Assembly (NCBI GenBank): GCA_947461175.1 | Contig: CANHIY010000008.1 | Coordinates: 1 to 45,122, forward strand | Length of the DNA stretch: 45,122 nt | From: Bacteriovoracaceae bacterium | GTDB taxonomy: Bacteria; Bdellovibrionota; Bacteriovoracia; Bacteriovoracales; Bacteriovoracaceae | Reading direction: 5' to 3' | Shown: positions 568 through 35,789 of the stretch, piece after piece | How positions within the stretch are numbered: the first letter of the stretch is position 1 | How the letters are laid out: each line of letters begins with the position of its first letter | Program-made: the position numbers and the translations under genes | Notes under the pieces: model-generated | Databases searched by the model: none | What the model saw: the letters and a program-made list of their open reading frames with translations, nothing else | What the model was told of the DNA's origin: nothing

Positions 568-1362
568 TCACATATCATTAAGAGAATTAAAAAACGACGT
601 GCACTTTGCACGAAAAACATTACTTTTCTTCACGATTTGATAAAGCCCTACGCAGATGACTCCAATCGCGAGCCATTGGTAAAACCCCAAGAAGAGGAAA
701 GTCGTAGCTAAATTTTCTCTGAAAAATTCAAGAATGAATCTCCCTATTCCATATGCCACAAAAAATAGAAAGAATCTCTGGTCATGAAACCGATCCTGTT
801 TTTCCAGTTTTCTGAATAAGAAGAACAAAAATCCCACATATGCTGCCTCGAGAAGCTGAACAGGAAATCTTGGATTTCCATCTCCAAAATCCACTCCAAA
901 ATAATGAGGTACAATGATGCCATAGCAACAATGTTGAAAAAAACATCCGATTCTGCCAATAAACATGAGGGCACAAGTACCTAGAACAAAGTCATCACTG
1001 GTTTCTTCTTTAATGTGAAAAATTCTTTTTGTGACCGCCACGAAAAAGAATCCCAGCAAAAGTCCGCCCAAGATTGTCTTTGGTCCGTAAAGATAGTTTT
1101 CTACAAAATCCTGTTTGAAAGTTGATCCAATTAGTTCTCCGGCAAAGTAAGCAGGAATGATGGCTCCAAAAATCGATCCAATGGAAGCGGATGAGAGAAC
1201 CAGTGTTCTTTGTGCCCAGTTAACGTTCCAAAGTTTACTTCTTTTTGTAATGAAGATTGAGCCCACGGTAAACGCCATTAAAATGAATAGTCGATGTAGC
1301 AGTGGGTTTCCTGACCGTAAAATATCAAGATAGTTTATTTGAAACCTCCCATGGCCATACAA
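568..1362 (-). CDS. Prolipoprotein diacylglyceryl transferase-like membrane enzyme
   Basis: This 264-aa polytopic membrane protein has the Lgt signatures in order: an LGGLLLG segment (about residues 97-103) where classical Lgt has HGGL, GRIGCFFQHCCYG (about 136-148) for the GRIGNFxNxExxG region, RFPVQLLEA for the RxPxQLYEA motif, and a C-terminal GRFILEFFRE. The His of the classical HGGL motif is Leu here, and the signature is of the cysteine-rich GCF..CCYG type. It is therefore probably not the housekeeping Lgt. By family it should move a diacylglyceryl group from phosphatidylglycerol onto a thiol or another acceptor in the inner membrane; the acceptor is unknown. Its start overlaps the end of the zinc-ribbon gene by 28 nt, making it the last gene of the leftward operon. 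Confidence 0.75.
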   Translation of the reverse strand: MYGHGRFQINYLDILRSGNPLLHRLFILMAFTVGSIFITKRSKLWNVNWAQRTLVLSSASIGSIFGAIIPAYFAGELIGSTFKQDFVENYLYGPKTILGGLLLGFFFVAVTKRIFHIKEETSDDFVLGTCALMFIGRIGCFFQHCCYGIIVPHYFGVDFGDGNPRFPVQLLEAAYVGFLFFLFRKLEKQDRFHDQRFFLFFVAYGIGRFILEFFRENLATTFLFLGFYQWLAIGVICVGLYQIVKKSNVFRAKCTSFFNSLNDM

Positions 1363-1562
1363 AGAAGTTTGAGAATAAAGGGGATTCCTATCGTGACGGC
1401 AATAAACATGAAAATGATCGCAAATAATACTGTTACAAATAAATTGCTTTTCTCTTCTTTATCTTCGGAAGGAGGAAAATTATAGTAACAGGTCCAACAA
1501 GAAGTTGCCGATGGATGGTTAAGTTTTCCACACCTTGGACATTTTTTTTGATTAGAGCTCAC
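1335..1562 (-). CDS. Small zinc-ribbon membrane protein
   Basis: A 75-aa protein. The N-terminal CPRCGKLN...SCWTCYYNF (residues 8-29) supplies two CxxC knuckles of a zinc ribbon, followed by an acidic linker and one or two hydrophobic segments (about 40-70). The zinc ribbon should face the cytoplasm. It overlaps the upstream membrane-protein gene by 11 nt and the downstream Lgt-like gene by 28 nt, so it is translationally coupled within the operon. No specific family is recognised; an accessory or assembly role for the neighbouring enzymes is inference. Confidence 0.7.
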   Translation of the reverse strand: MSSNQKKCPRCGKLNHPSATSCWTCYYNFPPSEDKEEKSNLFVTVLFAIIFMFIAVTIGIPFILKLLCMAMGGFK

Positions 1563-2151
1563 GGACGTCCCCTTTTAGAATAAGTCTACGGAAAAGCCTG
1601 ATTATCTGGCTTATCACCCCACCGCCCATGAAAAGAATGGCAACGAAAATCACAATCTGAGAATGCTCAATAGCAGTGGGAAGTTGGTATCGGCTACTGT
1701 AGTAGGTTACACCTAGGAAACCGATTGTATTTATGATGATCGTGAACCATAAGATTTTTAAGTCGAAGTAAAGGCCAACTAAGCTTATGAGCACTAAATA
1801 GAGTGGAATGAGTGAACTGCGTGGTCCATCGGCACTCAAGATGATCATACTAAGCAATGCCGTATCAATAATGGCTACCAGATACTTAAAGGTGACGTGC
1901 GAGATTTTAAAGTAATGAAAGATGAACAGACTAAGAGATATCACTCCCCAGAAGAGGAGGATATAAGTGATCGCCTGATGAACTGCAGGTGTTACTGAGG
2001 CATATTGGTAAAAATTTAGGAACTGGATCCCAGTGAAGACAAAGATCCCCAAGAGACGAATCCAATTGATGACTAAAGAGGATTTCACATTGAAGAGTCT
2101 TTCTGCAATGAAGAGTTTTTCCGACTGCTGAAGGGGCAAAAGAGTGCTCAT
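1552..2151 (-). CDS. Six-helix integral membrane protein, sensor-domain-like
   Basis: A 199-aa protein with about six predicted membrane helices after a short cytoplasmic N-terminus. The segment ADGPRSSLIPLYLVLISLVG resembles the membrane sensor modules usually fused to histidine kinases or nucleotide cyclases, yet no output domain follows here. Its start overlaps the iorB stop by 4 nt (ATGA type) and its end overlaps the zinc-ribbon gene. It could be a free-standing sensor, a lipid-binding scaffold or a transporter-like partner of the Lgt-like protein. Confidence 0.65.
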   Translation of the reverse strand: MSTLLPLQQSEKLFIAERLFNVKSSLVINWIRLLGIFVFTGIQFLNFYQYASVTPAVHQAITYILLFWGVISLSLFIFHYFKISHVTFKYLVAIIDTALLSMIILSADGPRSSLIPLYLVLISLVGLYFDLKILWFTIIINTIGFLGVTYYSSRYQLPTAIEHSQIVIFVAILFMGGGVISQIIRLFRRLILKGDVREL

Positions 2152-2708
2152 TTATGATCCTTTTTATGAAGGCATTCTTGAAAGTATTTTTGATAATTGT
2201 TTTCTGAGAACGGCAAATATCCTAACTTTACTGATTCAAGTCCAAGCTCGAAGTTAGTCATTTTTTTTGTACCGTGTTTGTGATGACTTAATGACTCGAA
2301 GTCCTTAATGATAGAAGAAAGTTCCAAGCGACGAAGCTCTTCACAGGGGTCGGTGTTGGAGGTTCCATTCAAACGGTCCGAGAGAAAGGGCTGCTTCACC
2401 GAATTGACCACGATCTTTGTCGATCGCGAGAAGAGAGATGAATGCCTGAGCGCCTCCCAAGGTTCGAGGGCAATAAGGAGATCAAGACTTCCACGAGGAA
2501 TCTGTGGTGAGAAGCGTTTATAGTCTGTCTGATTTTGAAAGATTCTGATCACTGAATGGACCGTACCAAGTCGTTGGGCCCCACCTTTGATAATGGAACT
2601 GATTGCCTGCTGACCACTATTTTCCAGTAAAGTTGTGATTGTCCGGGTGAGTGTAATAACACCCTGGCCACCGATCCCTGCAATGAGAATATTATATGGA
2701 GAATTCAT
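2148..2708 (-). CDS. iorB: Indolepyruvate/2-oxoacid:ferredoxin oxidoreductase, beta subunit-like
   Basis: A 186-aa protein beginning with the gamma-domain signature IAGIGGQGVITLTRTI (residues 8-23), typical of IorB/KorC/PorG subunits. KGGAQRLGTVHSVIRI (about 41-56) is also characteristic. It pairs with the downstream-numbered iorA gene, whose 3' end it overlaps by 17 nt. The complex oxidatively decarboxylates aryl-2-oxoacids to acyl-CoA and reduces ferredoxin. In this operon either the acyl-CoA or the reduced ferredoxin may be the wanted product; the radical SAM enzyme across the promoter needs an electron donor. Length is normal for the family. Confidence 0.85.
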   Translation of the reverse strand: MNSPYNILIAGIGGQGVITLTRTITTLLENSGQQAISSIIKGGAQRLGTVHSVIRIFQNQTDYKRFSPQIPRGSLDLLIALEPWEALRHSSLFSRSTKIVVNSVKQPFLSDRLNGTSNTDPCEELRRLELSSIIKDFESLSHHKHGTKKMTNFELGLESVKLGYLPFSENNYQKYFQECLHKKDHK

Positions 2709-4509
2709 GTTGATACCTCACATTGATGGCGTCATTCGGACAGATCTCGATACAAACCCCACACCTCATGCACTTATCTAGATCTATTTTTAAGTCCTCA
2801 CTCAACGTTTCTACTCTTTCAATTGCGGGACATTGAAGGTCAGTATAGCAAATATCACAATCCAAGCATTGAGAATTGTCGATGGAGATGAATTTCGTTT
2901 TTCTTTTAAGCTCTGTCTCTGGATCAGGTTGAAGTGCGCAATCCCCCTTGACCCACATCACGCGCACACCTTTACCTTTGAGTTCCTGACGAATTCTTAG
3001 AGTAAGCTCAAGTGGGTTAAACGCAGAAACTTCAATGATTTTATCAACTCCAATAGACTCTAGTAAACCTCGATAATCGGTCTTCGGATTCCGTGTCGGA
3101 GAATCCTGGTGGCCCGTCATGGCAACCGAACGGTTATCGAGTACCATGTGTAGGAGATTTATCTTATTCAGGATTGCACTCTGAAGTGAAAGTATTCCCC
3201 CGTGGAAAAAGCTACCTTCACCTCCAGTAGAGATGACTTGTTGATCTTTTAAAACATGGCTCATACCCTGAGAAATTCCGATCCCTGCATTCATACAAAG
3301 AAGCCAATCGGTCCGATGTGGAGGAAGTGATGAGCATCCGATGTCTCCACCAATGATTGTGTCTGTTCCCTTGATTGCCTCGTCGATAGCATAAAAGATC
3401 GAGCGGTGGGGACAACCTTCGCAAAAAGCACCTAGTCTCTCAGGGACCACCGGTATTGCCAGTGGTTCGGGTCCTTCTTCAAATTTGAATTCTTTTCGAA
3501 GATAAGAATCTACCAGATGGTAACTAACCTCATCCCAGACGGGAAAAATGTCTTTTCCATAAACATCTCCCTTGAGCTTATTAAAGAGGTTCATCTTAAT
3601 CTGATTTTCAAGGAATCCGTCTTGATCTTCGATCACGACGATCTTTGCTTTATGTTCCAGAAGGGCTGCAAGTGGAGTGATGTTTAACGGGTACGTCATC
3701 TCAACATTAATCAGATGAACTTCGTTAAATAGACCCAAATGAGATAGACTCTCATAAACATGGTTTGACGTGATTCCTCGGGTGACTATTGCATAAGGAG
3801 CTTTTGGATTACCAAAGCCTTGAAGAAAATTGGTATCACTTGCTAAACGGCCAAGCCTCTCAACCAGAGCACGATGATTGCGCACAGCTTTTTGGCCAAC
3901 GTTGATGAAGCGCTCAGGATTTTTTTCAAAGTGAAAGTTTTTAGGATGGTATTTTATTTTTTGCACGACTATGGAGTCGGTGTTGTAACAAAGCTTGGCG
4001 GGAATGAAGACCAAAACAGGAACCTCATATTTTTCGGAGATGTCGAACGCCCTCACGACTGTATCTTTGATCTCTTGAACTGTCGTCGGCTCAAGAAGTG
4101 GAAGATTCATCTGAGGAGCGTACCAATGCGGATCTTCCTCTCCCGTACTGCAAGTGGCTCCCGGATCTGTTCCCACAACGATCACCATCCCGCCCTTGAG
4201 GCCCGTATACCCGAGGTAATTCAGAGGATCGCTCGCAATGTTCATTCCCACATGTTTGAAAACGACCAGAGACCGCGCTCCACAGTAACTTGCCCCAGCT
4301 GCTGCCAAAGTAGCAATGTGCTCATTAGTTGCGTGGTTGAAAGTGATATCGATATTTTCTTGCGCACAAATTTTCTGTAGGGCCGGCTCGACATGATTTA
4401 CTGGAGAGCCAGGATAATGAGCGAAGTAATCGACACCTGCTTCAACCGCCGCCCAAGCGACTGCCTGGTTACCAGTTGAGTTGACATTAAAAGAGTATTT
4501 AGGGACCAT
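2692..4509 (-). CDS. iorA: Indolepyruvate:ferredoxin oxidoreductase, alpha subunit
   Basis: A 605-aa protein with the IorA layout: N-terminal pyrimidine-binding domain (NQAVAWAAVEAGVDYFAHYP near residue 14), transketolase C-terminal-like middle domain, and a TPP-binding domain with GDIGCSSLPPH and GGEGSFFHGG...LDN. Two C-terminal [4Fe-4S] motifs follow, CLDCDICYTDLQCP and CMRCGVCIEICP. It decarboxylates arylpyruvates with TPP and passes electrons to ferredoxin. It is the first gene of the leftward operon and sits 54 nt from the divergent radical SAM gene. Substrate specificity cannot be read from sequence. The start ATG has only a weak ribosome binding site. Confidence 0.9.
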   Translation of the reverse strand: MVPKYSFNVNSTGNQAVAWAAVEAGVDYFAHYPGSPVNHVEPALQKICAQENIDITFNHATNEHIATLAAAGASYCGARSLVVFKHVGMNIASDPLNYLGYTGLKGGMVIVVGTDPGATCSTGEEDPHWYAPQMNLPLLEPTTVQEIKDTVVRAFDISEKYEVPVLVFIPAKLCYNTDSIVVQKIKYHPKNFHFEKNPERFINVGQKAVRNHRALVERLGRLASDTNFLQGFGNPKAPYAIVTRGITSNHVYESLSHLGLFNEVHLINVEMTYPLNITPLAALLEHKAKIVVIEDQDGFLENQIKMNLFNKLKGDVYGKDIFPVWDEVSYHLVDSYLRKEFKFEEGPEPLAIPVVPERLGAFCEGCPHRSIFYAIDEAIKGTDTIIGGDIGCSSLPPHRTDWLLCMNAGIGISQGMSHVLKDQQVISTGGEGSFFHGGILSLQSAILNKINLLHMVLDNRSVAMTGHQDSPTRNPKTDYRGLLESIGVDKIIEVSAFNPLELTLRIRQELKGKGVRVMWVKGDCALQPDPETELKRKTKFISIDNSQCLDCDICYTDLQCPAIERVETLSEDLKIDLDKCMRCGVCIEICPNDAINVRYQHEFSI

Positions 4510-4563
4510 TAATTAATGGTAGCAGTAAAGAAACCTAGAATCAAATAATTAAGAGAGGATTCC
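4510..4563. promoter_or_regulatory. Shared divergent promoter region of the nine-gene cluster
   Basis: Only 54 nt separate the iorA start (leftward) from the GTG of the radical SAM gene (rightward), so both promoters and any operator must lie here or extend into the coding regions. AGAGAGGATTCC directly before the GTG is a good Shine-Dalgarno. I could not define -10/-35 boxes with confidence. Confidence 0.5.
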
Positions 4564-5931
4564 GTGAACCTTACGTCACTCAAAGAGAACCTTGGCCTAT
4601 CGTCGAGAGATGCGAAGTTTTTTAGAAAGCTTGATGACCAATCTGTCGAGTGCTACCTATGTCCCCGCCACTGCAAAATAAAAGATGAGAAAGGCGGATT
4701 CTGCAAAGTTCGTTGGAACGAAGGCGGAAATCTTAAAACTCTCAATTACGGTGTCTCCGTTCAGATGACCCAAGAAGTTATTGAAACTGAAGCCGTTAAT
4801 CACTTCGCTCCTGGAACGCCGATTTTATCTCTTGGGAATGTCGGTTGCATGATGAACTGCGATTACTGCCATAACTGGAAGACCTCCCAGATGCGAGAGG
4901 TAAATCTAAAAGATATTCACCATTATACGCCAGAGCAAGTTGTCGCCACCGCCCTTGAAAAAAATATCAAGATTCTCTCATGGACTTATAATGACCCGGT
5001 CGTCTGGCATGAATTTGTCTATGATACGGCCAAGCTTGCCCGGAAACATGGATTGATTAATCTGTATAAGTCTGCCTTTTATATCGGACCTGAGGCAATC
5101 GAGGAATTGCTTGAGGTCATCGACATTTTCAGTATCTCTCTTAAATCCTTGAACCCTGAAATTTATTTAAAAACAACCAAGGGCCAACTTCAGCCGGTGT
5201 TAGACGGGATCAAGCAAGTTTATAAATCCAAACGTCACCATCTTGAGCTAAGTAATCTTGTTGTCACTGACAGTACCGATAAGATGGAAGAAATTGAACG
5301 TCTTGTCTCCTGGATATTGACAGAGCTGGATTCGACAGTTCCTCTTCATCTCGTTCGCTTTCATCCAGATTATAAGTACACTTACGTGGAGCGGACTTCG
5401 ATTGAATTTCTGAAAAAGGCCCGTGAACGCGCGCTCGAAATGGGTCTTAAACATTGCTACTTAGGAAATGTTTATGAGTCCGGGGAATGGTTAAATACTC
5501 ACTGTCAGTCTTGCGATGAAGTCCTAGTTAAACGGTTTGGACTCCAGACTCAAACTCCCGGTCTAAGCTCTGATGGATCTTGTCTCAATTGCGGGCAGAA
5601 ATCCTCAATTGTAACGCTTTCATCTTCACCAGTCATTCCCAAGATATCTACTAATGACGATTTTACTAATTCCAAGTTCATATCATGGACCTCCGAAGCC
5701 AATGCAGCTCACCTTGTTGCAAAAAATAATTCCACGGATTCCAAAAGCTTTCGCTTTCGTCATCTGGGCAAAGAAGAGTTTTCTGAAATTGGTCTTACCC
5801 CAGGAGAGAAATGGCGCTTCCTTATCTCTCGAGATAATCACAGTTCGCAGGGAATTGAGATTTCATTTCCCGAGCAAATAAGCGTTGAATTTTTGGAGGT
5901 TTTAGATCGGGCCCATTTTCCCGTTTCTTAA
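4564..5931 (+). CDS. AmrS/PflA-like radical SAM enzyme with C-terminal extension
   Basis: A 455-aa radical SAM protein. The N-terminal CYLCPRHCKI...GFC (C30, C33, C37, C47) and CMMNCDYC (C95, C99, C102, the SAM cluster motif CxxxCxxC) match the AmrS/pyruvate-formate-lyase-activase-like family of the AmmeMemoRadiSam group. A zinc-ribbon-like set C314/C317/C340/C343 follows, normal for AmrS. About 110 further residues at the C-terminus are extra to the usual length and unrecognised. No amrA or amrB (Memo) gene lies nearby. Start is GTG at 4564 behind AGAGAGGA. It needs a low-potential reductant, which the divergent IorAB pair could supply through ferredoxin. First gene of the rightward operon; reaction unknown. 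Confidence 0.8.
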   Translation: MNLTSLKENLGLSSRDAKFFRKLDDQSVECYLCPRHCKIKDEKGGFCKVRWNEGGNLKTLNYGVSVQMTQEVIETEAVNHFAPGTPILSLGNVGCMMNCDYCHNWKTSQMREVNLKDIHHYTPEQVVATALEKNIKILSWTYNDPVVWHEFVYDTAKLARKHGLINLYKSAFYIGPEAIEELLEVIDIFSISLKSLNPEIYLKTTKGQLQPVLDGIKQVYKSKRHHLELSNLVVTDSTDKMEEIERLVSWILTELDSTVPLHLVRFHPDYKYTYVERTSIEFLKKARERALEMGLKHCYLGNVYESGEWLNTHCQSCDEVLVKRFGLQTQTPGLSSDGSCLNCGQKSSIVTLSSSPVIPKISTNDDFTNSKFISWTSEANAAHLVAKNNSTDSKSFRFRHLGKEEFSEIGLTPGEKWRFLISRDNHSSQGIEISFPEQISVEFLEVLDRAHFPVS

Positions 5932-5941
5932 AAAATATATT

Positions 5942-7057
5942 ATGCATACGAACACCGAAATTTTACATACTAAGATTGATACTTCGAGGGCGAATCCCAA
6001 TGTGACTCCTTTGTATCAAGCGAGCTCCTTTTTATCGGGTTCTGATTTCTTTTACACTCGTAAATCAAATCCCAATTCCTCTGAACTTGAAGAGGTTCTT
6101 AAAAACCTCGAAGGTTGTCAGCATGTGATTAGTGTCACAACGGGCATGGCCGCCATAAACATGGCTTTGCGTTTGCTCCAGCCAGGTGATCATCTCATCG
6201 CTAACGAACTTATTTACGGCTGTACTTATCAGTACCTGATTGAGTTCGCTCACCACTATCAGATTCAACTCGATTTTGTCGACATGCTAAAGCTAGATGA
6301 CTTAAGAAGTTACATGAAGCCTACAACTCGGATGATTTTATTTGAAACTCCGACAAATCCACTTTTAAAAACAATTTCTATAATGGATGTTGTGAAGTTG
6401 AGAAACGAGCAATGTTCCAATGCCCTGATCGTAGTGGATAACACTTGGGCAACTTCCTACTTCCAGAAACCTTTAGACCTCGGTGCTGATCTCTCAGTTG
6501 TGAGTGGTACGAAGTTCTATGGTGGCCACAGTGACTGCATGGCCGGCTTCATATCAACTAATCGGCAGGATCTGGCAGAGAAGATGTTGGCCCTGCGGTT
6601 TTTTCAAGGCTGCATTCTTGATCCGCACTCGGCGTGGCTGATGAGAAGAAGCATGCAAACTTTTACTCTAAGAATGAAAGAGCATCAGGCCAAGGTTCAG
6701 ATGATGGGCCGATTCCTGAAAGAAATAGACGAGATCGAAAAAGTTTATCTTCCAGAAGTCGATGGGGTTCAAATGACAGGGTATGGTTGCATCCTCTTTT
6801 TTGAGTTTAAAGATAGGTACAAGGACTCGGTCAGTAAGTTCATGGACTCACTCAAACTTTTTGATCGCGGAACCTCTATGGCATGTGTCGTATCGGCAGT
6901 GGCCCAGCCTTTCACCGGAAGTCATCTCTCTATGAAATCAGAAGATAAGATTCGAGTGGGGATCCGGGAAACGTTAGTTAGACTTTGCTTTGGTCTGGAA
7001 GAAGAGCAAGACCTTAAGGCCGATCTCCTTCAGGCATTTAGAAGCATCAATGATTAA
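5942..7057 (+). CDS. Cys/Met-metabolism PLP-dependent enzyme (cystathionine synthase/lyase family)
   Basis: A 371-aa fold-type I PLP enzyme. YTRKSNPNSSELEE (39-51) and TTGMAAINMAL (66-76) form the cofactor pocket, VVDNTWAT holds the PLP-binding Asp166, and SGTKFYGGHSDCMAG carries the Schiff-base Lys191. The family includes cystathionine gamma-synthase, the beta- and gamma-lyases and O-acylhomoserine sulfhydrylase; the exact reaction cannot be assigned. It starts 10 nt after the radical SAM stop with no good Shine-Dalgarno, so translation is probably coupled. In this cluster it may build or cleave a C-S bond in a sulfur-containing intermediate, but that is inference. Confidence 0.85.
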   Translation: MHTNTEILHTKIDTSRANPNVTPLYQASSFLSGSDFFYTRKSNPNSSELEEVLKNLEGCQHVISVTTGMAAINMALRLLQPGDHLIANELIYGCTYQYLIEFAHHYQIQLDFVDMLKLDDLRSYMKPTTRMILFETPTNPLLKTISIMDVVKLRNEQCSNALIVVDNTWATSYFQKPLDLGADLSVVSGTKFYGGHSDCMAGFISTNRQDLAEKMLALRFFQGCILDPHSAWLMRRSMQTFTLRMKEHQAKVQMMGRFLKEIDEIEKVYLPEVDGVQMTGYGCILFFEFKDRYKDSVSKFMDSLKLFDRGTSMACVVSAVAQPFTGSHLSMKSEDKIRVGIRETLVRLCFGLEEEQDLKADLLQAFRSIND

Positions 7058-7835
7058 GCAACATAAGAAACTTCTTATATATCCATTGCTCCAGCTGATC
7101 TTTTTTTGTTTTTCCCTTCAGCTCGATGGAATTAGTGCCTTTGTATGTCTGATCTTGGCAGGTTTTTTTCTTTGTTTTACCGTTCATATTTCTTTTCACG
7201 AACTCATTCACAGAACTCATCATTTCGAGAGAGACCATTATATTTTTTATGTAGGAACATTGATGATCGGCCTTCCTCTGGATGGATACCGACTACACCA
7301 TCTCAATCATCATCTTTTCACCAATACTATAGGCGACTATTCTTCCACTTGGAAGAATACTCCAGAAGGCCCTAAGGCACGAAATGTCTGGCACTATTGC
7401 CTGGCTTGGCCCTATTTTATTTTTCTCTCACGAAAAGGTATGAAACTGGATCTCCAGGCAGGTCGCACCAAAGCAAGTCATCAACTTCGATTGAATCGAC
7501 AGAAAATATTTTTTCTATTATTTACGGTTTCTTTACTTTGTTTTCACAAGGTATTTTTCTCATATCTCACTATGATCTACTTGGGTTGGGTCTTCACCTC
7601 CTTGCAAAACTATGGTCAGCACCGTCCGTACAGTTACGAAGCCAGTCAAACCTATAGTTGTGGAGATAAAGTTTATAATTGGATATTGGCCAATAACGGA
7701 CTTCACTGTGAGCATCACTCCCAGCCTGTCGTTCCTTGGCATAAACTAACGGAGAGTCGGCCAGTGCCCCGTTTGAATTGTCCTCATATAATATTTCCTT
7801 TTAGGAGCTTAAATGAAAATTCATTTCATCCGTAG
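7050..7835 (+). CDS. Membrane fatty-acid desaturase family protein
   Basis: I choose the ATG at 7050, which overlaps the PLP gene stop by 8 nt, rather than the ORF-track start; it gives 261 aa. The three histidine clusters of membrane di-iron desaturases/hydroxylases are present: HELIHRTHH, HHLNHHLFTN and NNGLHCEHHSQP. Four hydrophobic helices surround them. It should use O2 and electrons to desaturate or hydroxylate an acyl chain in the membrane. Its place after a radical SAM and a PLP enzyme, and opposite an Lgt-like protein, suggests a lipid product. The electron donor is not encoded adjacent. Confidence 0.85.
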   Translation: MIKQHKKLLIYPLLQLIFFCFSLQLDGISAFVCLILAGFFLCFTVHISFHELIHRTHHFERDHYIFYVGTLMIGLPLDGYRLHHLNHHLFTNTIGDYSSTWKNTPEGPKARNVWHYCLAWPYFIFLSRKGMKLDLQAGRTKASHQLRLNRQKIFFLLFTVSLLCFHKVFFSYLTMIYLGWVFTSLQNYGQHRPYSYEASQTYSCGDKVYNWILANNGLHCEHHSQPVVPWHKLTESRPVPRLNCPHIIFPFRSLNENSFHP

Positions 7836-8949
7836 GCCTCTTGAAGTCTCACTTGAGTCACGAGAAGTTTTGGGACGGACCATTGCCGCTTTCCTTGATG
7901 AGGAACTTAAACACCTTGCCAAAGATTCTGACTCGGATTGGGAAGTCACCTTGGGTGAAAATTTGATTTTTGATAGGGCCGGACTTGAGCTTCTTAAAAC
8001 TTGCCTTAGCTCCTATAAGGGGAACGCAGACCAAGTGATCTTTAGTCTCAGATCATCTGAAAGTTGCTTCAGAGACTATTATTCTCTTCAGCGACAATCT
8101 TCTGATGACGTTGTTAATTTGGAGGCAATCGCAAAAAAAGTTTCAGGAAAAAACATTCTAACTGAGACGATTGAAGTTATTCTTCCTGAGCTTACAACAA
8201 CGGTGCCAATGCCTAGCTCTCTGGCGAGAGAAGTTATAACAAGTCTTCCTTTGGCGTTACTAATGAATATTAACTGCGAGCACGAACTACTTTTTGCGAA
8301 TCAGATTGCGTATTTCCCTAAACTACTGCGAGAAATCAGGATTTCTCCATGGGCCTGGGTGAAAAGTCTTTTTCCTAGGGGAGGGATTTCATTTAAACAA
8401 CGTATTGCAATCAATACTAATCGCATTCATCCTTCTGCCCAAGTTCATCCAACTGCTGTTATAGAAGGTAGTTTCATCGGTGAAGGTTCCAGGATTGGGG
8501 CCCATGCAGTCGTACGCTATAGTTTGTTAGGAAAAAATGTCCGACTTCATGATGGAGCAAAGGTCGAGCATTCTGTTGTTGGTGACGGCAGCTGGCTTAT
8601 GCATGACCTTGTTTTATATCGAAGCTGTACAGAGAAAGAAGTTTTTCTCATCCATGGACCTTATCAGTTCTCTTATTTTCAAAGTTACAGTGCTGCCTTT
8701 GCCACGATCATGATGGATTATCGTCCCGATGCTAAGCCAATTAGGATTTCTACCAGATCAGGAAAGAAAGCATATGAGGGAAGGTTTCTAGGTTCTGTTC
8801 TTAAACCAGGATCAAAGACACTAGGTGGATGCAACTTGGCACCAGGTCGAATTGTTCCTGAAAATGTCTGGCTTGCTGGTGACAAGGACTCTCTCCATAA
8901 ATTAGAAAAGTTAGATCTTCCCCAACAGTCACCAATTTTTTCAAGCTAG
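7813..8949 (+). CDS. Left-handed beta-helix (GlmU-like hexapeptide repeat) protein
   Basis: A 378-aa protein. Residues about 205-265 carry imperfect hexapeptide repeats (IHPSAQVHPTAVIEGSFIGE, IGAHAVV, LLGKNVRLHDGAKVEHSVVG) of the left-handed beta-helix acyltransferase/nucleotidyltransferase class. The N-terminal 200 residues are not a recognisable nucleotidyltransferase, as no GxGTRM-type loop is seen. It resembles sugar-nucleotide pyrophosphorylase C-terminal regions, but the chemistry is open; CoA-dependent acyl transfer is the commonest activity of this fold. The start has TTTTAGGAGCTTAA before it and overlaps the desaturase by 23 nt. Last gene of the rightward operon. Confidence 0.7.
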   Translation: MKIHFIRRPLEVSLESREVLGRTIAAFLDEELKHLAKDSDSDWEVTLGENLIFDRAGLELLKTCLSSYKGNADQVIFSLRSSESCFRDYYSLQRQSSDDVVNLEAIAKKVSGKNILTETIEVILPELTTTVPMPSSLAREVITSLPLALLMNINCEHELLFANQIAYFPKLLREIRISPWAWVKSLFPRGGISFKQRIAINTNRIHPSAQVHPTAVIEGSFIGEGSRIGAHAVVRYSLLGKNVRLHDGAKVEHSVVGDGSWLMHDLVLYRSCTEKEVFLIHGPYQFSYFQSYSAAFATIMMDYRPDAKPIRISTRSGKKAYEGRFLGSVLKPGSKTLGGCNLAPGRIVPENVWLAGDKDSLHKLEKLDLPQQSPIFSS

Positions 8950-9215: not shown

Positions 9216-10481
9216 ATGAAATATAGAAACTATGACCCAAGGGTCAAGCAGATGGTTATTCGTTCAAGAAACCCAAACTTATTTCCTGATTTAAATATTC
9301 CAAGAACGACAGCTCTATATTGGATAAATCACAGTAAGGATATGGTTGAATATGATTCAGCTTGTTTCTCAAATGAGGAGATCACTGGTTTAAAAAAAGA
9401 TAACTTCAATTTGAAAGCAAAGAACTTGTTGCTCAAGGAGCTTATTGGCGAGAGCTTTAGTTTTGAAATTAAGAATTCGTTGAAGGGGAGAGAAAGACGG
9501 CAGAAAATTATTGAAATAGTCGAAAGCTTCAAGGATGTACTCAAATTAAAAGAAGCTCTTGATGCTTTTGGAATCAGTTTTTCTACTTATTATCGTTATC
9601 GCTCTGAGATTTTAGGTTGTAATTTGAAATCAAAAATTTGTGATTCAAGTTATGGTAGATCTCTGTCCCATGAAAATCAGAAAAAGATGATTGAAATGGC
9701 ACAGGATAAAAGGTTTGCTCATTTTTCAACTAGAAGTCTTGCCTATTTTGCTCAAAAGGAGGGGATATTAAGTTGTGGGGCAGATTCTTGGTATAAGTAC
9801 TTAAGAGTAAATCAAATTGAGAGACCTAGAATTAAAAAGATCAAGCAGAAAAAATATGGAGTTGGAATTCGGGCGAGCAGGCCTTATGAATTGTGCCATA
9901 TTGATGTTACGCAGGTTAAAACAAGTAATTTTAAAAAAGTCTATCTTCAGTTAGTAGTTGATAATTTTTCAAAATCAATTCTATCCTTCAAGGTTGGTGA
10001 GTTTAAAAATTTAAAACTTTCAATTCGTAGCCTGAATTCTTTAGATATGACTCAGTTTTATAAGGATAAGTATTTAATGTCTGATAGAGGAGGTGAAAAT
10101 GTTAATGTTAAGTTTCAAAAATTATTAATTGGAAAAGGGATAACACATTTATTGGTAAAATCAGAAATATCCTTTTCAAACTCAATTGTTGAAGCCGTAT
10201 TTAGACAGATGAAAAGAGTTGAAGAGATAAGGAATCCACGTTCGATAAATAGTTTTAGGATTGCTGTGAGAAATTATGTTGAACAACACAATAATCTCAT
10301 TCCACACTCTTCACTTAAAGGTGCCACACCTTTTGAAGTTCTCACCTCAAAACCCAAATATGACTATCGGGTTCAATGCTTAAAATTGAGGACCAATGAA
10401 ATACTGAACCAGTCTAAGGTTAAAAGGCAATGTCGTAAATGTTCGTTTAGGATGAAAAGAGTTTTACTTCAAACATCTTAA
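9216..10481 (+). CDS. DDE-type transposase (IS3-like integrase core, single ORF)
   Basis: A 421-aa protein. The N-terminus (1-60) is a helix-turn-helix-like region (NIPRTTALYWINH), followed by a coiled linker and an rve-type integrase core. The catalytic triad is probably the Asp in HIDVTQVK, the Asp in MSDRGGENV and the Glu in SIVEAVFRQMKR. The C-terminus is basic and carries an RQCRKCSF knuckle. Unlike classical IS3 elements there is one uninterrupted frame, without the orfA/orfB programmed frameshift. The ribosome binding site is AAAGGA. Base composition is more AT-rich than its neighbours, suggesting transfer. I found no convincing terminal inverted repeats, so the element borders are not given. 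Confidence 0.8.
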   Translation: MKYRNYDPRVKQMVIRSRNPNLFPDLNIPRTTALYWINHSKDMVEYDSACFSNEEITGLKKDNFNLKAKNLLLKELIGESFSFEIKNSLKGRERRQKIIEIVESFKDVLKLKEALDAFGISFSTYYRYRSEILGCNLKSKICDSSYGRSLSHENQKKMIEMAQDKRFAHFSTRSLAYFAQKEGILSCGADSWYKYLRVNQIERPRIKKIKQKKYGVGIRASRPYELCHIDVTQVKTSNFKKVYLQLVVDNFSKSILSFKVGEFKNLKLSIRSLNSLDMTQFYKDKYLMSDRGGENVNVKFQKLLIGKGITHLLVKSEISFSNSIVEAVFRQMKRVEEIRNPRSINSFRIAVRNYVEQHNNLIPHSSLKGATPFEVLTSKPKYDYRVQCLKLRTNEILNQSKVKRQCRKCSFRMKRVLLQTS

Positions 10482-33152: not shown

Positions 33153-34712
33153 ATGAACATGATAGCACTTCTTCTTGTCTCTTTTTTCCTCAATCCCTGG
33201 TCAACAGTTAAGGCCCAATCCCTTATTGATCCATTTGTGGAAAGGAACATTAAAAGAAATTTTCCCGATTCAGGTCAGACCTTTTTAGAGCTTCATAAAA
33301 AGTTATGTGCCCTTAATTCATCTGAAAAAATCTCTAACCTTGATTTAAGTTCAACGGGATTAAAAATAAAATCTCAAAAAATAGTAGAGATTAATAAAAT
33401 CGATGCCATGAATCTGAAGCTTGAGATTGAGTTACAGGATTCAGCTCATCGGTTCAATACGATTGAGATTATCTCAAGAAGGGGAGAAAATGGTTTTGAT
33501 ACCTTGTTTAGCATGTACTTTGTTAAAAAAGTTGATGTCATCCCCTCTCTAAATACCAACCAGATGGTATTTAGGTCTTTCACGGGTAATAGTACTTCGA
33601 TGAAAAAATGCCTTTTCATGAGTCCAACGGAATTTTATAAAAAAGGTGAAAGAGCTGATAGGCTTGTTTATCTTGAACTTAATGAGGACGGACTTGTTCA
33701 CCGAAATCACTACAGTAATCAGGAACCACAAACTTTAGCTGAAATCTACAAGTCGCAACCAAATCTTCACGCCAAAATCAGGATTCTTCAGGAATCGAAC
33801 CGTCGGATCAAAGTAGGAATCATAGATTCAGGTGTGGATTATAATCATCCGGCGATTGCTTATAAAATTGAGCGCCGTTACACCTATGAAACGGAGGAAA
33901 AACTTCTCCATGATGCTGTTGTTTCAGAGAATAAGAAAAATGAATTGGACCTAAGAAAATTTCTCATCAATGGTTTTGATTTGAGAGATAAGGACTCTTC
34001 TCCTTATGATTTTGATGGTATAAAAAAGATCAGTCACTTTCACCCTTATGTTGATTTTCATGGAACCGAAGTGGCCCATGCTTTAACAAAAGACACGGAT
34101 AAAATTGTTTTAACTGTCGGTAAGTACAATTTAATCTCACTTTTCTCCATTGCAAAAATTATTCAGGAACAAGTTAGTCAGGGGGCAAGGATCATTAACA
34201 TGAGTTTTAATTACTCAAAATTATCCCAGATGCTCTCCCTTGATACGGGCATTCGTAATGCTTTAAAAAATAACCCCGATACCCTTTTTGTGGTAGCAGC
34301 AGGAAATGAGGGAAAACAAAAAGTGACCTATCCGGGTTCTTATCCCTTTCCAAATATTATAAACGTGGCGGCCACTGATTCTAAAGGGGAGTTATGGAAG
34401 CACTCAAATTACGGGCCTACCGTTTTTATTGCGGCCCAGGGAATTCATAAACTGTTTGTCCCAGGAAATACAGATGTCACTGACGATTCCAGTGGCACAA
34501 GCTTTGCTGCCCCAGTGGTCTCAAGGCTTGCCGCTCTGATGCTTTTTGAAAATAAAGACCTTACTCCCTCAGAGATCAAGCAAATTCTTTGTGAAACCGC
34601 TGATAAAAAAGAGGCTTTGGTGGGAAAACTTATTTGTCCTGGGATCATTAACGAGGAAAGGGCCCTTCAGAGTGCGCGAACTTTCGTGGGCTCAAGGAGC
34701 TCTGGACTCTAG
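33153..34712 (+). CDS. Secreted subtilisin-like serine protease (S8)
   Basis: A 519-aa protease with signal peptide MNMIALLLVSFFLNPWSTVKA. A roughly 190-residue N-terminal region (pro-domain or accessory) precedes the S8 domain. Triad: IIDSGVDYNHPA (Asp225), DFHGTEVAHAL (His303), SSGTSFAAPVV (Ser450); oxyanion Asn385 is in VAAGNEGK. All catalytic residues are intact. The ATG at 33153 has a second ATG two codons later as an alternative. Its 3' end overlaps the convergent AlkB-like gene by 21 nt. Likely acts in the periplasm or outside the cell. Confidence 0.9.
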   Translation: MNMIALLLVSFFLNPWSTVKAQSLIDPFVERNIKRNFPDSGQTFLELHKKLCALNSSEKISNLDLSSTGLKIKSQKIVEINKIDAMNLKLEIELQDSAHRFNTIEIISRRGENGFDTLFSMYFVKKVDVIPSLNTNQMVFRSFTGNSTSMKKCLFMSPTEFYKKGERADRLVYLELNEDGLVHRNHYSNQEPQTLAEIYKSQPNLHAKIRILQESNRRIKVGIIDSGVDYNHPAIAYKIERRYTYETEEKLLHDAVVSENKKNELDLRKFLINGFDLRDKDSSPYDFDGIKKISHFHPYVDFHGTEVAHALTKDTDKIVLTVGKYNLISLFSIAKIIQEQVSQGARIINMSFNYSKLSQMLSLDTGIRNALKNNPDTLFVVAAGNEGKQKVTYPGSYPFPNIINVAATDSKGELWKHSNYGPTVFIAAQGIHKLFVPGNTDVTDDSSGTSFAAPVVSRLAALMLFENKDLTPSEIKQILCETADKKEALVGKLICPGIINEERALQSARTFVGSRSSGL

Positions 34713-35690
34713 GACCTTTTTATTCATGACTCTAAACCACAGGGGCGGAATGAGGGCCAGGAGGATCATTCCTGGATAGCCAGTGGGTAGCTCTGGTGAA
34801 CTGTCATGATGGCGAAGGATCTGATATTTTCTTCCCACATTGGAGTGATGGTCTGAGTGTCTGGATAACTCAAACAACACGGCCCGAGACAGTGGGTGGT
34901 CAGAGTTCCAGGAGTGATGGGGAAGGACTTTCTCGTACCGACCGGGTGTGGTTTCTTTTCTCATGAGACCGTAGTGCTCGATGTAGTTAACTGATTCTAA
35001 TAAAATAATTCCCACAATGGCACTCAGGATAAAACCCACAAGGGCCCTCTCTCCAAAGAAAAAATAAAGAAAAATCATAAAAAGGATCTCCAGCATCACC
35101 GCCTTTTTCATTTCTTTGGGATCAATCTTAAAGGCCGAAAAAAAACTCTCTTTAATTGACCTCAACCAAAAAGCATAAAGATTTTCATTTAAGCGTGAAG
35201 TTTCAGGATCTAAGGGGGTGGAGACATTTTTATGATGACCTTTGTTGTGCTCAATAAAAAAATGCCAATAAAGGGACGTTGTAAGAAGAAGTTTCGCCAA
35301 GACCTGCTCGAGGGGATGTGAGCGATGACCCAATTCATGAGCGGCATTTATCCCCAAAACCCCACACCCAAGCCCCATCGCACTGATAAGTCCTATGCGC
35401 TCCATCATCCCAAGATCTGGATTCTCATACAAATGGCAAAACCAAAAAAGAAGCCCATACTGAACGGGAACCATAATCCAGAGGATAACATCAAAATAGA
35501 TGTGGTCTTTTATTTGTTCTTCTTCAGAAAGAGTTTTATTTTCTTTTAATACCGGAAGAAAGAACTCAAGAAGTGGTAAAAAAACAAAAGCATAAACCAC
35601 AGCAAAGTAACTCAATACCCCCCCCAGCCAAAAAGAGATGAAAATGGCCAAAGGTATCGTTAAGGAGAGTAGGTAATAGGATTTTTTCAT
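34692..35690 (-). CDS. AlkB-like alkane 1-monooxygenase
   Basis: I choose the ATG at 35690 (332 aa, MKKSYYLLSLTIPLAIFISF), as the ORF-track start 19 codons earlier adds non-membrane sequence. All His motifs of the AlkB integral-membrane di-iron hydroxylases are present: AHELGHRSH, EHNKGHHKNV, NYIEHYGL (the AlkB hallmark) and SRHSDHHSN. Six helices are expected. It hydroxylates medium-chain alkanes or alkyl tails with O2 and rubredoxin. No rubredoxin gene is adjacent. It may act on lipid chains rather than free alkanes. Confidence 0.85.
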   Translation of the reverse strand: MKKSYYLLSLTIPLAIFISFWLGGVLSYFAVVYAFVFLPLLEFFLPVLKENKTLSEEEQIKDHIYFDVILWIMVPVQYGLLFWFCHLYENPDLGMMERIGLISAMGLGCGVLGINAAHELGHRSHPLEQVLAKLLLTTSLYWHFFIEHNKGHHKNVSTPLDPETSRLNENLYAFWLRSIKESFFSAFKIDPKEMKKAVMLEILFMIFLYFFFGERALVGFILSAIVGIILLESVNYIEHYGLMRKETTPGRYEKVLPHHSWNSDHPLSRAVLFELSRHSDHHSNVGRKYQILRHHDSSPELPTGYPGMILLALIPPLWFRVMNKKVLESRAP

Positions 35691-35789
35691 AAACCTATTA
35701 TATTCTAACCCTTTTGAAATTCCTTGTGGGAATTGACGAATGTCCAAGTCTTAGGTAAACCCGTCCTTACACTTTTCAAGGATCTACCC

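Follow-up and report, generated by a model that had tools for sequence, protein, structure and literature searches.

We report a nine-gene cluster at positions 568-8949 of a stretch of DNA from a Bacteriovoracaceae bacterium (assembly GCA_947461175.1, contig CANHIY010000008.1, positions 1 to 45,122; this whole stretch of 45,122 nucleotides is called the window below). With moderate confidence, and judging from sequence comparison, we read the nine genes as one form, type A, of a single horizontally moving pathway whose product would be a lipid, or a lipid-like metabolite, of acyl origin. The core enzymes form a rare block, present in seven phyla or more, for which we found no product described; no description of the gene combination was found in the open-access literature. 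Its product is probably a lipid or acyl compound not yet described, made by bacteria that are for the most part uncultured, and the cluster offers a defined setting for the roles of an AmrS-like radical S-adenosylmethionine (SAM) enzyme and of a paralogue of Lgt whose active site is altered.

Organization of the cluster

A first-pass annotation of the window had proposed a nine-gene divergon, and all nine open reading frames (ORFs) are located at 568-8949, in two diverging arms either side of a 54-nt gap and overlapping or 10 nt apart. The features are as follows.

568..1362, minus strand: Lgt-like integral membrane protein, the type A marker (PF01790)
1335..1562, minus strand: zinc-ribbon protein with one transmembrane (TM) segment (weak zinc-ribbon match)
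1552..2151, minus strand: MEM, a sensor-like protein with multiple TM segments (no family match)
2148..2708, minus strand: IorB-like gamma/beta subunit of a 2-oxoacid:ferredoxin oxidoreductase (family search)
2692..4509, minus strand: IorA-like subunit with thiamine pyrophosphate (TPP) and two [4Fe-4S] clusters (family search)
4510..4563: divergent intergenic region of 54 nt between IorA and rSAM (sequence)
4564..5931, plus strand: rSAM, a long AmmeMemo-type radical SAM enzyme (TIGR04337)
5942..7057, plus strand: pyridoxal phosphate (PLP) enzyme of the Cys/Met (cystathionine/methionine gamma-lyase) family (PF01053)
7050..7835 (ORF listed from 6990), plus strand: DES, a membrane di-iron protein of the fatty-acid desaturase/hydroxylase type (PF00487)
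7813..8949, plus strand: LBH, a hexapeptide beta-helix protein (hexapeptide match)

The overlaps in the leftward arm are 28, 11, 4 and 17 nt; in the rightward arm the rSAM and PLP genes are spaced by 10 nt, and DES and LBH overlap by 23 nt. DES most likely starts at the ATG at 7050 rather than at 6990, because its homologues begin there, and this start gives a PLP-DES overlap of about 8 nt and not 68. The divergent arrangement is not a fixed property, since several other genomes carry all core genes on one strand.

Conservation of the genomic neighborhood

We built an LBH profile from four sequences and scanned it against 85,462 GTDB species genomes. The scan gave 22 loci, a rarity that may be somewhat overstated because the search relied on two short exact patterns. 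The nine window proteins were compared with these loci by tblastn, and some of the genes scored as absent may lie past contig ends. At most of the loci LBH adjoins orthologues of IorA, IorB, rSAM, the PLP enzyme and DES, so that the shared neighborhood for which the annotation had suggested a search is indeed present in other genomes. The carriers are Gammaproteobacteria, an Aquificaceae metagenome-assembled genome (MAG), Planctomycetota, Verrucomicrobiota, Desulfobacterota, Bacteroidota and Bdellovibrionota, and a contiguous core of IorA-IorB-rSAM-PLP-DES(-LGT)-LBH is seen in several phyla. Recurrence of one gene set, as a block, in different phyla puts its grouping far beyond chance.

The type A gene order, which is the layout of the window, is [IorA IorB] rSAM PLP DES LGT LBH. 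It is found in Gammaproteobacteria (L023, L027 and L030, the last of which begins within PLP) and in the Aquificaceae-labelled MAG (L024), and it is found without IorAB in Planctomycetota/Brocadiia (L031, L032) and in another member of the Bdellovibrionota (L021). In gammaproteobacterial MAGs a gene for a predicted metal-dependent hydrolase (PF10118) is repeatedly found beside type A clusters (L023:2552-3421, L027:11139-11987, L051 and L067). The rSAM gene of the L021 genome, G074, lies in two overlapping frames (L021:1703-3051), which may be a genuine frameshift or an artifact of sequencing.

A second layout, type B, is represented by the Flavobacteriales locus L035, where the order is FabA, a ketosynthase (KS)-like protein, KS, ketoreductase (KR), acyl carrier protein (ACP), LBH, a saccharopine-dehydrogenase-like enoyl reductase (ER), DES, MMPL, IorA, IorB, rSAM and PLP. 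Type B loci have LBH after the ACP gene. Portions of this layout are present in other Flavobacteriales (L037, L038/L066 and L040/L102), and partial or rearranged versions occur in another member of the Bacteroidota (L041) and in Bdellovibrionota (L036, L042, L043). The verrucomicrobial locus L039 reads LBH-DES-IorA-IorB-rSAM-PLP. Two further loci sit in clusters of the nonribosomal peptide synthetase (NRPS) type; in Desulfobacteraceae (L034/L098), rSAM, LBH, IorA, IorB and PLP lie within such a cluster. These settings show that some of the genes can work with other assembly lines. The Geobacteraceae genes are divided between two contigs: on L025, Lgt and LBH lie close to a CDP-alcohol phosphatidyltransferase and to radical SAM proteins of the B12 type, and L064 has IorA-IorB-rSAM-PLP adjoining a fusion of a major facilitator superfamily (MFS) protein, PlsC and an AMP-ligase.

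The accessory genes recur as well. A MEM homologue (22-26%) directly follows LBH in three planctomycete loci, and zinc-ribbon/TM proteins are found after the MEM gene in planctomycete loci and beside PLP in Geobacteraceae L064. By these comparisons all nine window genes have a cluster-linked counterpart elsewhere, that of the zinc ribbon being assigned by position and general make-up with no significant alignment. The view of the first-pass annotation that the genes form one unit and not two independent known pathways is supported by the recurring block.

Co-occurrence and origin

The long form of rSAM was found in 19 of the 23 LBH genomes versus about 1 of 1,290 other genomes sampled. It was absent from the 367 other Gammaproteobacteria, the 394 further genomes from the G302 phylum and the 292 other Planctomycetota sampled, and among about 237 other Bdellovibrionota it was present in G147 only. 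IorA at >50% identity was found in 16 of the 23 LBH genomes versus 0 of 247 other Bacteroidota. The pairwise distances of IorA, rSAM, PLP and LBH are also correlated with one another (r 0.48-0.76, Mantel p <=0.003).

The cluster was not found in any of the same-genus relatives searched. Its GC fraction is 0.423 versus 0.385 for the rest, and a gene for an rve-type integrase/transposase lies directly downstream (window 9216-10481). Contamination of the assembly was ruled out, since a YcaO-like gene on the same contig (window 30790-32964; by eye a fusion of OsmC-type and YcaO parts) is common to 10 of 11 congeners, at 48-65% identity. Sharing of this gene indicates that the contig is native and that the cluster is the foreign part, and the simplest reading is that the cluster was probably gained horizontally.

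Proposed pathway and alternative explanations

The existence of a unit and its acyl or lipid setting are well supported by the comparisons above, which also show a patchy distribution among lineages, and the catalytic motifs are invariant in the aligned families, which supports a pathway. An acyl-derived product is suggested by the ACP beside LBH, by the reductive fatty acid synthase (FAS) set and exporter in type B, by the phospholipid-type genes in Geobacteraceae and by the presence of DES in most loci. The first-pass annotation had likewise named a membrane lipid as a possible product, with which the FabA/KS/KS-like/KR/ACP/ER/MMPL genes of type B and the MFS-PlsC-AMP-ligase and CDP-alcohol phosphatidyltransferase genes of Geobacteraceae agree. 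In the pathway that we propose, the PLP enzyme would remove or replace the gamma (or beta) group of an amino acid of the methionine/homocysteine type, releasing a 2-oxoacid. IorAB, by analogy with its family, would decarboxylate a 2-oxoacid, possibly with an aryl or short alkyl side chain, to an acyl-CoA building block and reduced ferredoxin, and the latter could supply rSAM; the arylacyl-CoA named in the annotation is too specific. The rSAM, with its beta-sandwich domain, may carry out a radical modification of the acyl block or of a carrier-bound chain. Chain extension would use the housekeeping FAS in type A and the dedicated KS/KS-like/KR/FabA/ER/ACP set in type B, DES would perform an O2-dependent desaturation or hydroxylation of the chain, and LBH would pass the acyl chain from ACP or CoA to an acceptor. 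As a last step in type A, the Lgt-like protein may finish the product at the membrane or anchor it there, a role that the MMPL exporter could take in type B. Transfer to or of a diacylglycerol by the Lgt-like protein, which the annotation had proposed, is one possibility only, given that Lgt is not universal and its catalytic His is lost. Tentatively, and with rather low confidence, we could go further: an IorAB-primed and rSAM-modified acyl unit, desaturated or hydroxylated, might be joined to a diacylglycerol-type lipid by the Lgt homologue with its rebuilt Cys/His site. Such a product would be a new class of bacterial lipid, and in other phyla the same unit would enter products of FAS and NRPS.

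Several observations weigh against the proposal of a single lipid pathway. Three planctomycete genomes and G074 lack IorAB, and Lgt is missing from all type B loci, which have a dedicated type-II FAS, an ACP and an exporter of the RND (resistance-nodulation-division)/MMPL type instead; neither IorAB nor Lgt is therefore strictly required. The correlation of distances may come partly from shared species history, all 22 loci are from MAGs, and we found no homologue with a known activity, substrate or product. The rSAM and its C-terminal domain may also be a mobile tailoring module, because they occur in G147 at an NRPS locus (L119; C210:44000-63000) in which LBH was not found. There a split rSAM and a gene for the C-terminal domain lie beside an NRPS of 2,072 amino acids, and the locus also holds genes for a phosphopantetheinyl transferase, for a protein resembling U32 peptidases and for another two radical SAM proteins.

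The G147 locus bears on another explanation as well, in which the output of the core is not a membrane lipid but either a diffusible natural product or its building block, such as an unusual amino or acyl unit supplied to NRPS or FAS assembly lines, with Lgt, MMPL and FAS as alternative uses of one block. The pairing in G147 of the split rSAM and domain with the 2,072-residue NRPS and the phosphopantetheinyl transferase fits this explanation, as does L098/L034, where PALP, ornithine-cyclodeaminase-type, condensation, AMP-binding and ATP-grasp genes surround rSAM, LBH, IorAB and PLP. The type A loci examined, however, have no assembly-line genes, and the Lgt-like protein and DES are membrane proteins of lipid-type families, so that we give a natural product a minor, though serious, share of the probability.

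Three further explanations are less probable. Amino-acid catabolism, with a methionine gamma-lyase-like enzyme yielding 2-oxobutyrate and a thiol, IorAB yielding propionyl-CoA for energy or odd-chain fatty acids and the other genes as mere neighbors, would agree with the YGC motif of the PLP enzyme, with the methionine gamma-lyases among its best PDB relatives and with the oxidation of 2-oxoacids by IorAB-type enzymes; it is improbable in our judgment, as it leaves the conserved rSAM, DES, LBH and Lgt unexplained and both the PLP enzyme and IorA score under the cut-offs for methionine gamma-lyase and IOR. That an IorAB arm and an rSAM-PLP-DES-LBH arm are independent and share a promoter region by chance would suit the planctomycete and G074 loci, in which rSAM-PLP-DES-LGT-LBH stands with no IorAB on the contig and no orthologue of it elsewhere in the genome. 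Yet IorA-IorB-rSAM-PLP is contiguous and co-directional in L023, L024, L027, L035, L039, L064 and L066, and Lgt, which belongs to the IorAB arm in the window, sits with DES and LBH in L023, L024, L027, L030, L031 and L032; we find a chance meeting of two halves hard to credit. Least probable is a lipoprotein or lipid-anchor modification, in which the Lgt-like protein would lipidate a specific peptide or a small thiol made by the other enzymes. Its PF01790 membership and the conservation of the Lgt arginines and Glu-type positions speak for this, against the absence of Lgt from type B, the replacement of the HGG His in all 11 sequences and the fact that no gene for a dedicated peptide substrate was recognized in the cluster, which was not searched systematically for one.

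Other features of the window and related loci

A second membrane protein resembling alkane hydroxylases or desaturases (by eye) is encoded outside the cluster, at window 34692-35747. No known RNA feature was found in the window, viral contigs gave no match (patterns from IorA only), and a known defense system was rejected as PADLOC gave no match beyond a trivial one to rSAM. An HgcAB-like fusion protein adjoins IorA in Bdellovibrionales (L065:8368-9492, minus strand; NF043039, 307.8 vs 285 bits) and another adjoins rSAM in Desulfobacteraceae (L098:7579-8763, plus strand); both have the NVWCAAG motif, each with a UbiE-type methyltransferase. The fused HgcAB of Methanococcoides and Pyrococcus made no methylmercury (PMC5893877), so a link to the pathway of the cluster could hint at another role.

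Comparison with known systems

The rSAM resembles AmrS of the AmmeMemoRadiSam system in its family score (TIGR04337, 296.6 bits, above the cut-off of 220) and in its CX3CX2C motif (C95/C99/C102) and extra Cys sets. It differs in length, being about 455 amino acids and roughly 100 residues longer, and in its partners: as the first-pass annotation had noted, there is no Memo companion, Memo (PF01875) not being found in its own genome (a MAG about 90% complete), where AMMECR1 (PF01871) was not searched for. Memo is present in 8 of the 23 cluster genomes, most of which have another rSAM, shorter and about 31-37% identical, that adjoins Memo in G300 and G304, and the window enzyme is a long form apart from the Memo-linked one. 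The added length corresponds to a C-terminal beta-sandwich domain (about 372-455) with the motif W..H..R..DRA.[FY]P, modelled as a small, confident sandwich of seven strands (pLDDT, the predicted local distance difference test, 84), for which all PDB matches had E >0.005 and none was significant. In some Bdellovibrionota this domain is a separate gene of 97-106 amino acids beside an rSAM of 356-364. No function of the AmmeMemoRadiSam enzyme was found described in the open-access literature.

The window IorAB resembles the indolepyruvate:ferredoxin oxidoreductase (IOR) IorAB (TIGR03336/TIGR03334) in having POR_N, a C-terminal TPP domain, two 4Fe-4S domains and a gamma subunit as a separate gene, and the window IorA has every cluster cysteine and the TPP-domain motifs. 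Both subunits score below the equivalog cut-offs (434.6 vs 650.9 bits for IorA, 56.9 vs 205.8 for IorB), and the window IorA falls in a separate group, about 50-56% identical and tied to the cluster. The PLP enzyme shares with methionine gamma-lyase and cystathionine gamma-synthase the fold family, the PLP Lys, the YGC[TS] motif and an Arg that we expect to bind the substrate carboxylate. The active-site Lys is kept, and C94, invariant in 15 sequences, is presumably the active-site Cys of the YGCT motif of methionine gamma-lyase. The enzyme lies below all the curated subfamily cut-offs shown, including that of methionine gamma-lyase (TIGR01328, 254.2 vs 549.7 bits).

For DES (PF00487, 76.5 vs 29.7 bits) the three His boxes HxxxH, HxxHH and HxxHH are all invariant; neither DES nor LBH had a solved relative that could be found by sequence. 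LBH (Hexapep, 30.5 vs 27 bits) has a confident model (pLDDT 90) with an N-terminal nucleotidyltransferase-like domain and a left-handed beta-helix. The overall fold resembles that of GlmU-type nucleotidyltransferases and left-handed beta-helix acyltransferases (Foldseek E 5.5e-12 to ST0452), a result that, like all those from Foldseek and AlphaFold here, indicates fold and not activity. Identity is only about 12%, TM-scores are <=0.45 over the whole chain, the N-terminal catalytic signature was not seen by eye, and a block VFLIHGPYQF, invariant or nearly so, is unique to LBH. The Lgt-like protein belongs to the Lgt fold family (PF01790, 71.6 vs 24.9 bits), with the GRxG Arg and the R-P-Q-E and YG..R..EF.R motifs, and scores below the Lgt equivalog cut-off (TIGR00544, 40.2 vs 118.9 bits). 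In alignment with E. coli Lgt (5azb) the arginines are kept, and the HGG His, which we take to be catalytic, is Leu or Met in 11 of 11 sequences; the window protein gains an invariant C140-H144-C145-C146 set.

Among whole clusters, those for aryl polyenes are, we assume, comparable type-II FAS/polyketide synthase lipid clusters. The window and type A differ from ladderane and aryl polyene FAS clusters in having no KS-chain length factor pair, KR, dehydratase or ACP, which occur in type B only. Ladderane clusters were compared directly and were rejected as an identity for the cluster; in the paper that describes the candidates from Kuenenia/Desulfotalea, the terms ferredoxin, hexapeptide and pyridoxal are absent from the main text (PMC2649909). 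Those candidates share with type B a KS and its KS-like partner, a KR, a dehydratase, an ACP and MMPL, and with some type B loci also B12 radical SAM proteins.

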